In this document: one piece after another, positions 20,205 to 46,771 of the stretch
Layout of the letters: each line of letters begins with the position of its first letter
How positions within the stretch are numbered: the first letter of the stretch is position 1
DNA from: Minwuiaceae bacterium
GTDB taxonomy: Bacteria > Pseudomonadota > Alphaproteobacteria > Minwuiales > Minwuiaceae
Direction: 5' to 3'
NCBI GenBank assembly: GCA_028278525.1
Contig: JANQEE010000040.1
Span: 1-64,000, forward strand
Length of the DNA stretch: 64,000 bases
Notes under the pieces: model-generated
Databases searched by the model: none
Told to the model about the DNA's origin: nothing
The model's input: the letters and a program-made list of their open reading frames with translations, nothing else
Translations under genes and position numbers: made by a program

Positions 20205-20307
20205 GGACCCGCGCTCCTCGGCTCCGTTGAACGTTGTCCTCGAGAGTGCGCGTAGCGTCGCGCCGGCGCGTTGACCTGGGTCAAGCTCGATGCCTAGGCA
20301 TTAGGAG

Positions 20308-20394
20308 AGTCATCGCGAGGCCCGAAGGACCGCGGCGATCTGGAAAACACAGCGCTCGGCCCTTCGAGATTGCTTCGCTCCGCTCGCAATGACA
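20308..20394. repeat. Dispersed palindromic repeat, copy 1
   Basis: About 87 bp flanked by GTCATCGCGAG and CTCGCAATGAC, near-perfect terminal inverted repeats. The middle (GCGGCGATCT ... GAGATTGCTTCGCT) also pairs, so the whole element can fold into a long stem. A second copy is at 46613-46697. The wording matches the common 'TCATTGCGAGCGAAGC' intergenic repeats of many bacteria. Confidence 0.8.
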
Positions 20395-20416
20395 GCCGGG
20401 GAGGCTGGCTGTGTAA

Positions 20417-43370: not shown

Positions 43371-44606
43371 ATGTCGGACATTGGAAGAACCCTGGAACAG
43401 CCCAAACCGTCCGGTCCGCCCTTGCGTCTCAACTGGCTGATCGCCGCCGCTTTGCTCGGCTTTGGCGCCGTGCTCTATATCGGCTTCTACGCCAACTACC
43501 TGACCACCCTGAACGGCATCTTCGACGCCTCGAACCATCCGGTCGGCCGCGATTTCCTGGTGTTCTGGTCGGCCGCCAAGCTGGCGAATGCCGGGCAGGC
43601 CGCCCTGATATTCGATGTCGACGCCTATCACGCGGTGCAGCAGCAATTGCTGGGCGGAACCTTCCCGTTGCACCCGTGGTCTTACCCGCCGCAATTGCTG
43701 TTGTTGATCCGGCCGCTCGGCTTGCTGCCCTACGTTCCCGCCTACCTCCTCTGGCTGGTGCTGGGCTGTTCGCTCTATCTGTTCGCCGCGCTTCGCGGCG
43801 ATACGCCGTTGCGGCGATTTGTTCCTCTGGCCGCGGCGGCCTTGTTTCTGGCGCCTTCGAGTTTCGTCACCATCGCGTCCGGCCAGAACGGGTTCTTTTC
43901 CGGCGCGCTGTTCGTTGGTGGTCTGTTGCTGGTCCGGCGGCATCCGGTTGCGGCCGGCATTATGTTCGGCCTGCTGACGTTCAAACCGCAGCTCGGGCTC
44001 TTGATCCCCGTCGCCCTGATTGCGCTTCGGCAGTGGAAGCCTTTCGTTTCCGCTATTGCCACCGCCGGCCTGATCGTCGCGGTGAGCTTTGCCGTCGACG
44101 GCGCGGAGACCTGGCGTCTGTTCGTGGTCGAGGCGATCCCGTTCCAGGCGGCGTATATCGAAACCAGCGAGGGGTTCTTCACCTGGATGATGCCGACAGT
44201 GTTCATGGCCGGCCGGCTGCTGGGCTTCGACCCGGCGGTGAACCACGTCATGCAGCTTGCCTCCGGGCTTGCAGCCACGGTCGCGACCTACTGGGCCTTT
44301 AGAAAGTCCCGGGACCTCTCGATCCAGCTTGCAGTAATCTCCATCGCCACGTTTCTCATCGTCCCCTATGCCTTCAACTACGATATGACGATCGTCGCGG
44401 TCGGAATTGCCTGCTACGCGGTGGCGCGGGCCGAGCGCGGTTTCCTGCCGTTCGAGCGGCTGGTCCTGGCGCTGCTATGGGCCCTGCCCTTCCTCGTAAT
44501 GCCGTTCGGTGCCTTCGGCCTGCCGCTGGGGCCCGTCGTGCTTTGGTTGGGCCTGGGTTTCGTCCTTCGGCATATCCATCTGGAACGGCACCCGGCCCAG
44601 CCATAG
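43371..44606 (+). CDS. DUF2029/GT87-like membrane glycosyltransferase
   Basis: A 411-residue polytopic protein with about ten membrane helices. The extracytoplasmic loop after helix 1 has RDFLVFWSAAKLANAG and later WSYPPQLLLLIRPLG, typical of the DUF2029/GT87 family; members such as PimE transfer mannose from polyprenyl phosphate. The acidic RD at the membrane face is the likely catalytic region. It has no operon partner. The ATG at 43371 follows an AAGG at suitable distance. Acceptor unknown. Confidence 0.75.
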   Translation: MSDIGRTLEQPKPSGPPLRLNWLIAAALLGFGAVLYIGFYANYLTTLNGIFDASNHPVGRDFLVFWSAAKLANAGQAALIFDVDAYHAVQQQLLGGTFPLHPWSYPPQLLLLIRPLGLLPYVPAYLLWLVLGCSLYLFAALRGDTPLRRFVPLAAAALFLAPSSFVTIASGQNGFFSGALFVGGLLLVRRHPVAAGIMFGLLTFKPQLGLLIPVALIALRQWKPFVSAIATAGLIVAVSFAVDGAETWRLFVVEAIPFQAAYIETSEGFFTWMMPTVFMAGRLLGFDPAVNHVMQLASGLAATVATYWAFRKSRDLSIQLAVISIATFLIVPYAFNYDMTIVAVGIACYAVARAERGFLPFERLVLALLWALPFLVMPFGAFGLPLGPVVLWLGLGFVLRHIHLERHPAQP

Positions 44607-44708
44607 ACGTTTATCGCCACACGGCCGCGTTGCGGTATCCGGGTGCTTTTTGTACATAGGCGCCGGTGATGCGCCGCCGTCGGCGGCGCTTAAGAGTCTG
44701 TTCAAGAA

Positions 44709-44794
44709 TGCCTGGCCGGCCCGCTCCCCCGTCCCAACCACCCGCACAGGGTACCCTATGGGTGGTTGGGACGGGGGAGCGGCCCGGCCAGGCA
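44709..44794. repeat. Near-perfect 35-bp inverted repeat (giant hairpin) in the ettA leader
   Basis: Arms 44709-44743 and 44760-44794 match at 34 of 35 positions. The 16-base loop itself holds the palindrome AGGGTACCCT (44748-44757). Outside the arms, TCTGTTCAAGAATGC (left) and a similar inverted copy near 44817-44833 extend the symmetry, broken on the right by a terminator-like hairpin. It may be a palindromic mobile element (MITE) or a regulatory leader. Confidence 0.9.
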
Positions 44795-44798
44795 CTCG

Positions 44799-44823
44799 AA
44801 AATGCGTCGCGAGACGCATTTTT
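44799..44823 (+). terminator. Terminator-like hairpin just upstream of ettA
   Basis: AAAATGCGTC, loop GCGA (a GNRA tetraloop), GACGCATTTT form a perfect 10-bp stem followed by a five-T run ending at 44823. It ends 25 bp before the ettA start codon. It could terminate the GT87 transcript or attenuate ettA. Confidence 0.8.
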
Positions 44824-44848
44824 GGACAGACACTATTTGGAGCGGACC

Positions 44849-46528
44849 ATGGCCTCCTATCAATACGTCTACGTCATGCAGGGAATGAGCAAGACCTATC
44901 CCGGCGGACGCCAGATTCTCAAGGATTTCAATCTGTCCTTCTTCCCCGGCGCCAAGATCGGCGTGCTGGGCCTGAACGGCGCCGGCAAATCGACGGTGCT
45001 GCGTATCATGGCCGGCGCGGACCCGGATTTCACGGGCGAGGCCTGGGCGGCGGAAGGTGTGAAGATCGGCTACCTGCTGCAGGAGCCGGAACTCGACCCG
45101 GCCAAGGACGTGCTCGGCAACGTGATGGACGGGGTCGGCGAGAAGAAGGCCCTGCTCGACCGCTTCAACGAGGTCTCCGCCCGGTTCGCCGAAGAAATGA
45201 CCGACGATGAAATGAACGACCTGATCGCCGAGCAGGGCGAGTTGCAGGAGCAGATCGACGCCGCCGGCTTATGGGACCTGGATCGCGAGGTTGAGATCGC
45301 GATGGACGCCTTGCGCTGCCCGCCTGGCGATGCGGGCGTCGACAAACTGTCGGGCGGCGAACGACGCCGCGTGGCGCTCTGCCGGCTGCTGCTGGCAAAG
45401 CCTGAGATGCTGCTGCTCGACGAACCGACCAACCACCTGGACGCCGAGTCCGTGGCATGGCTCGAACGGTTCCTGCATGAATATCCCGGCACCGTGGTCG
45501 CGGTGACCCACGACCGCTACTTCCTGGACAACGTCGCCGGCTGGATCCTGGAAATCGACCGGGGCCGCGGCATTCCCTACGAGGGCAATTATTCCGGCTG
45601 GCTGGAGCAGAAGGAAAAGCGCCTCCAGCAGGAAGAGAAGCAGGAAGAATCGCGCCAGCGTACCCTCAAGCACGAACTCGAGTGGATCCGCCAGAGCCCG
45701 CGCGCCCGTCAGGCCAAGAGCAAGGCCCGCGTCAACGCCTACGACGAGCTGCTCAGTCAGGAGCGGGAGGCCGAACGGGTCAAAGGCCAGATTTACGTGC
45801 CGCCCGGTCCAAGGCTTGGCGACCTGGTGATCGAAGCGGACGGCGTCTCCAAAGGCTTCGGCGACGATCTGTTGATCGAAGACCTGTCGTTCAAGATTCC
45901 GCCGGGCGCCATCGTCGGGATCATCGGCCCGAACGGGGCCGGCAAGACCACCTTGTTCCGCATGATCACGGGCCAGGAACAGCCGGATTCCGGGAGTTTA
46001 AGGGTCGGCGATACGGTCAAGCTCGGCTATGTCGACCAGTCGCGGGATTCGCTGTCCGCCGACAAGACCGTCTGGGAGGAGATTTCCGACGGCGACGACA
46101 TGATCGAACTCGGCAAACGCAGCATGCCGTCGCGCGCCTATGTCTCCGCGTTCAACTTCCGCGGCCCCGACCAGCAGAAGAAGGTCGGCCAGCTTTCCGG
46201 CGGCGAGCGCAACCGGGTGCACTTGTCGAAGATGTTGAAATCCGGCGCCAACGTGGTGCTGCTCGACGAACCGACCAACGACCTGGACGTGGATACGCTC
46301 CGCGCGCTGGAGGAGGCGATGCTCGACTTCGCCGGCTGCGCCCTGATCATCAGCCACGACCGCTGGTTCCTGGACCGAATCGCGACCCACATCCTGGCCT
46401 TTGAAGGCGACAGCCACGTCGAATGGTTCGAAGGCAATTACCAGGAATACGAGGCCGAGCGGCACAAGCGCCTGGGCACCGACGCCGACCAGCCGCACCG
46501 CATCAAGTTCAAGAAGTTCTCGCGCTGA
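44849..46528 (+). CDS. ettA: ABC-F translation factor, energy-dependent translational throttle
   Basis: A 559-residue soluble ATPase with two ABC domains and no membrane segment. Domain 1 has [21 protein letters not shown] and [10 protein letters not shown]; domain 2 has [20 protein letters not shown] and [10 protein letters not shown]. The interdomain linker (~235-320) and the opening [19 protein letters not shown] match EttA, which binds the ribosomal E site and gates the first elongation step according to ADP/ATP ratio. The ATG at 44849 follows TTGGAG. Its leader holds a large hairpin and a terminator-like stem. Confidence 0.95.
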
Positions 46529-46612
46529 AGGCTGAAAAGTCGCCCCGCGGCAACGGCATCCTTCGACGAGGTGAGGGCGAGGCTTAGATGAATTCAGCCG
46601 CCAGCCGGACTC

Positions 46613-46697
46613 GTCATCGCGAGGCGCGTAGCGCCGCGGCGATCTCGGGAAGACAGGGCACGGCATATCGAGATTGCTTCGCTTCGCTCGCAATGAC
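46613..46697. repeat. Dispersed palindromic repeat, copy 2
   Basis: About 85 bp with ends GTCATCGCGAG and CTCGCAATGAC, the same terminal inverted repeats as 20308-20394. The inner stems CGCCGCGGCGATCTC and GAGATTGCTTCGCTTCG are conserved, the central spacer is not. It lies in the gene-free gap after ettA. Confidence 0.8.
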
Positions 46698-46771
46698 GGC
46701 GGCGGTCGCTATCCAGAGCCTGTCGAAGGATCACAACAGTCAAAGGCGCGTCCGCCGTTCTGCCGTCGCGT

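Follow-up and report, generated by a model that had tools for sequence, protein, structure and literature searches.

Among the described systems closest to the present locus, the Correia (NEMIS) elements of Neisseria and other bacterial MITEs are short, non-autonomous, high-copy sequences with terminal inverted repeats, which lie between genes and form hairpins when transcribed (PMC2229807, PMC10969869). The element described below resembles them in all these traits, whereas the Correia sequence itself is unrelated. It also departs from known MITEs in that a resident transposase was not found, one hairpin core occurs in several terminal-repeat settings, and the copies are concentrated behind stop codons. 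REP and BIME sequences are likewise many-copy extragenic palindromes. REPs measure 20–40 bp, have one end marked by GTAG or CGTC and are associated with RAYT genes (PMC3733652); part of the E. coli REPs lie within 15–20 nt of a stop codon and can reduce translation (PMC12306157). The core studied here, in contrast, is about 75 nt long and was not seen beside a RAYT gene. Hairpins ahead of ABC-F genes are known from the attenuators of msrD and vmlR, and leader attenuation controls some resistance-type ABC-F genes (PMC10314930, PMC9226507). The msrD and vmlR attenuators are gene-specific, whereas the hairpin block ahead of the ABC-F gene treated here is scattered through the genome as a repeat and was not found at other ettA genes.

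The window, by which we mean the whole 64,000-nt stretch analysed from a Minwuiaceae bacterium (contig JANQEE010000040.1), carries on its forward strand an ettA-like ABC-F gene of 559 aa (44849..46528), with orthologues at 70–80% identity in 80 Alphaproteobacteria and related records. The upstream gene stops at 44606, and the block at 44694–44833, about 140 bp without coding capacity and thus of the small size expected of a MITE, sits between the two genes. We regard it as highly probable that this block is one insertion of a MITE-like palindromic repeat that is non-autonomous and present in many copies. The original prediction had described a stem of 35 pairs with one mismatch, and both folding and an inverted-repeat scan recovered it, at about 44709–44794; the scan delimits arms of 38 nt each (44706–44743 and 44760–44797), 95% complementary and 16 nt apart. 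The predicted fold of 44660–44860 as RNA reached −138.8 kcal/mol (z −11.9), a value that none of 200 dinucleotide shuffles (−82.4 ± 4.8) attained. As annotated from the fold, the large hairpin core comprises a left arm (44710..44743, forward strand), in which pairs have changed on both sides among the copies, and a right arm (44760..44793, forward strand), also seen as an inverted repeat. Between them lies the loop GCACAGGGTACCCTAT (44744..44759), and an AGGRTAC-like loop occurs in other genera as well. The palindrome said to be enclosed by the stem is indeed in this loop (CACAGGGTACCC/GGGTACCCTATG, within AGGGTACCCT). Loop length ranges from 15 to 18 nt over 82 cores of the source genome.

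A small hairpin, AAAATGCGTC-GCGA-GACGCATTTT, follows the core (44799..44822; arms 44799–44808 and 44813–44822); sequence and fold both show it, and most full-length copies carry it on a single side. It had been called a terminator with a GNRA loop. Its ten pairs are perfect and its loop is of the GNRA type, but the terminator label is weak, because the T's are taken up by base pairs of the stem, because a terminator scan did not report 44799–44822, and because 13 of the 21 family copies have only four T's there. In the window the hairpin is succeeded by one further T (44823), and the ettA start codon (ATG at 44849) comes 25 nt on. The outer halves of the block recur in inverted orientation, as had been noticed: the left one is GAGTCTGTTCAAGAATGC, and the right one reads GCACTC, then the small hairpin, then TTGGACAGAC; the plain inverted half lacking the small hairpin (GCATTCTTGAACAGACTC) was found in other copies.

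With the block as query, the source genome (5.95 Mb, 98% complete, in 71 contigs) yielded 90 matches, distributed over about 40 scored places, and more than 20 copies matched the full ~140 bp at 84–96% identity. The stem 18-mer CCCCCGTCCCAACCACCC, with up to two mismatches allowed, gave 112 matches per strand, i.e., about 110 palindromes, while its reversed control gave none. Such an abundance of dispersed similar copies is what a MITE would show. Many contigs start or end inside the repeat (e.g., C1, C7, C13, C23, C30 and C62), and the copy number is therefore a lower bound; fold-back copies at contig ends (L025 and L037) may be artefacts. The analyses below cover some 82 core records, from 70 distinct places, of the ~110 copies. 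One further match (L160) was a chance GC-rich stretch and was dropped. At C12:88040 (position ~1500 of L250), tandem half-core units GATTCCTCTGTTGCRGCCNNGCCGGCCCGCTCCCCCGTC were observed in direct orientation, each corresponding to the left core arm without the palindrome. A second interspersed repeat, TCGTCATCGCGAGG...GCAATGACGGC, which resembles extragenic palindromes of the CGTC type, is present in the window at 46607–46701, just past the ettA stop, and at 20307–20397.

The full-length form is bounded by imperfect terminal inverted repeats, as MITEs are. In the window, the left one, GAGTCTGTTCAAGAAT, occupies 44694..44709 on the forward strand and has exact or near matches at about 20 places of the genome, nearly all with a core, and the right one, GGACAGACAC, delimited by family alignment and pattern search, occupies 44824..44833 on the reverse strand. 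The small hairpin precedes the right end; it is missing in L024 and L025, which carry the plain inverted half, and is found on both sides in L011, while L141 has lost the core. Seven copies are flanked on both sides by TNA: TAA in L009, L010 and L015, TGA in L012 and L030, TCA in L024, and TTA in L022. The middle base thus agrees in seven of seven copies, the pattern that duplication of a 3-bp TNA target would leave, once the boundaries were corrected by hand and eye. An automatic test for 3-bp duplications on 20 copies with uncorrected boundaries found four exact ones against 2.6 expected (p 0.21, not significant), and for this reason we consider target duplication likely, not proven. The window copy is presumed to have a decayed duplication, with TAA on the left (44691..44693), for which sister copies offer matching TNA pairs, and TAT, one change from TAA, aligned on the right (44834..44836). 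Most of the ~110 copies in the source genome are without GAGTCTGTT ends and are bordered by different, diverged sequence; in these core-only copies, the flanks are too diverged to reveal terminal repeats or duplications.

The dispersal of the block bears directly on the proposal that it is a genuine ettA leader, in which two hairpins attenuate transcription of ettA upon translation stress. Position and strand fit such a device, as does the order of the two structures, the stable stem coming first and the small hairpin second, 25 nt ahead of the ATG, and the antibiotic-resistance ABC-F genes introduced above are regulated in this manner. Nevertheless, the original prediction itself held that many dispersed copies would refute a leader, and, as about 110 were found, the leader reading falls. 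A regulatory leader should also be conserved at the gene it regulates, but a comparable hairpin was found in none of the 80 orthologues: the 160 nt before their start codons contained no similar inverted repeat of 9 bp or longer, and few of 8 bp. Besides, the small hairpin is standard in full-length copies at unrelated genes, and the silence of the terminator scan counts against an attenuator too. We thus give the attenuation reading very little credence. The alternative raised alongside it, that the whole symmetric block of ~140 bp is a MITE, is borne out by the copies, their shared terminal repeats and the small hairpin on one side. As the GGAG Shine-Dalgarno-like site and the ATG of ettA lie outside the element, the insertion left both intact, and a promoter scan around ettA returned no site. 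It is possible that the window copy, being in the region before the gene, affects ettA expression; its stem, if included in the transcript, could reduce read-through or translation of ettA. The element's presence in the leader region is probably that of an incidental passenger.

Comparison with relatives in the sister genus points to insertion and loss. Three copies lie on an 18-kb stretch of G003 (L284). G007, G004 and G002 lack the one at ~4646; G002, G008, G005 and G006 lack the one at ~9290, of which G004 shows a short remnant. At the site ~4143, where G007 carries a copy, apparent deletion remnants were observed in G003 and G004. The element would have been moved in trans by a DDE-type (IS5-like) transposase that is now absent or was missed. 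Such ends, together with a TNA duplication of 3 bp, would, we assume, be in keeping with an IS5-type transposase. The search for IS5/IS4-type transposases matched solely one DDE_Tnp_1 (PF01609) remnant, and no autonomous insertion sequence with GAGTCTGTTCAAG ends was seen in the source assembly, of which many of the 71 contigs end in the repeat. An autonomous partner is not required for membership among MITEs. The core could alternatively be a repeat of the REP/BIME type, mobilised as single-stranded DNA by a RAYT (HUH-type) transposase. Its high copy number, extragenic location, hairpin shape and, as in part of the E. coli REPs, its place beside stop codons agree with this idea, and a RAYT search detected one Y1_Tnp protein in the source genome. 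The gene, which lies at a contig end, has no core in the 2.2 kb around it, however, and the GTAG or CGTC that marks one end of a REP is not found consistently at a fixed place by the arms of the aligned copies (GTAG in 10 of 140 flanks). The element is moreover larger than REPs, and its full form has terminal inverted repeats and duplications. We accordingly hold a RAYT-borne origin to be improbable and retain the MITE-like reading.

The copies are far from evenly placed with respect to genes. None of the 70 distinct copies in the source genome was inside a gene as called by a simple home-made caller trained on the window (annotation was not used). Facing stop codons are mostly 14–25 nt from the arm. 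Where both neighbours were called, 39 of the 58 copies had a facing stop at 25 nt or less, against 21.1 expected from uniform reinsertion in the same gaps, and 27 of the 31 co-directional copies were nearer to the stop of the upstream gene than to the start (Wilcoxon p 1e-5). TAG is over-represented among the stops beside copies (32/59, compared with 53/187 elsewhere; Fisher p 0.0005), and the same tendency toward gene ends was recognised in other genera. The window copy is exceptional, being 103 nt past the upstream stop with its arm 55 nt before ettA. On the plain reading, GC-rich genes would offer few TA-containing target sites and stops many, insertions inside genes would be purged so that copies persist at gene ends, where they do the least harm, and a target duplication or terminal repeat at the stop would restore the stop codon. 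A useful role at 3' ends is possible on top of this: the perfect hairpin at gene ends would probably be a structure of the transcript 3' end, serving as a terminator aid or a barrier to exonucleases.

A stronger version holds that selection has acted on the core as an RNA element of 3' ends, i.e., a bidirectional terminator or exonuclease-blocking hairpin, which spread mainly as it was useful, with mobility being secondary. Placement at stop codons in the source and other genera speaks for it, as does stem pairing maintained across genera; the L284 copy at ~13827 is common to five congeners, in which the hairpin is kept and both arms have switched subtype in concert. The distribution is, on the other hand, patchy, with two congeners lacking copies at the same sites, and 11 of the 58 copies have a gene start on either side, a setting in which a 3'-end role would be senseless. 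Selection at the RNA level also predicts a preference for G.U pairs, but in the copies of the source genome G.U pairs (26) did not significantly outnumber A.C mismatches (15; p 0.12). Since G.U is not clearly favoured, matching of the arms may be kept at the DNA level as well as via RNA, by palindrome-templated correction or by recognition as DNA. We take such a primarily functional element to be a serious possibility, albeit on balance an unlikely one. For the MITE-like repeat we favour, either selection for the hairpin or palindrome-templated correction would keep the arms complementary.

The core, a stem of ~31 bp with a loop of ~15–18 nt often containing AGGRTAC, reaches well beyond the source genome. 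A covariance model built from 25 diverse cores detected it in 30 of 385 sampled alphaproteobacterial genomes, representing 21 of 277 genera, and BLAST located it on plasmids of Sphingomonas sanguinis, Novosphingobium resinovorum and a Sphingopyxis. In the alignment of the 25 sequences, 98.4% of cells were paired, and 13 of the 31 pairs showed double-sided changes and none one-sided ones; no covariation score as high arose in 500 shuffles, and shuffled and slid controls were far lower. In the sister genus (G002, G003, G004 and G007), the cores follow the same plan with ACCCGGC in place of GTCCCAA in the stem, and they are set in at least three other flank types. The core is older and more widespread than the full-length element and occurs in varied terminal-repeat settings. 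The other stem subtype was also noticed in the source genome (L361, C70:62277-62353; ACCCGGCCACCC with an AGGATAC loop), and the two subtypes therefore coexist in one genome. Copies in G009, which belongs to a different family (e.g., L144–L149), are 85–91% identical to the source cores, while those of g3, a genus of the same family, are ~75% identical; this closer match suggests horizontal transfer of the core. The ACCCGGC core was also observed in 25 stretches of a viral collection (L335–L359), mostly by gene ends; several of them are ~15 kb and derive from isolate genomes, and such stretches may be gene transfer agent or prophage clusters. No core match was found in the phage records searched. 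A further and rather doubtful speculation is that a hairpin module, CTCCCCC-N1-2-CCCRRCCACCC with a ~16-nt loop often bearing AGGRTAC and a complementary arm, is class-wide, travels in several unrelated terminal-repeat chassis and settles on gene ends, its border supplying or restoring the stop, as a transferable 3'-end or terminator part.

Rfam returned only long-hairpin matches of the microRNA type and one sRNA family, all below the gathering cut-off, and keyword and sequence-string searches of the literature found no description of the core family. A family combining covarying stems, several terminal-repeat chassis and a preference for gene ends thus seems to be undescribed. For the annotation of ettA, recognition of the block as a dispersed repeat averts a false regulatory assignment. 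For the Alphaproteobacteria, it brings to light a family of repeats, apparently undescribed, at which assemblies break, and which extends over at least 21 genera and clusters behind stop codons. Should the hairpin have an effect on transcript ends, about 100 genes in a single genome would be having their 3' ends remodelled by a selfish element.
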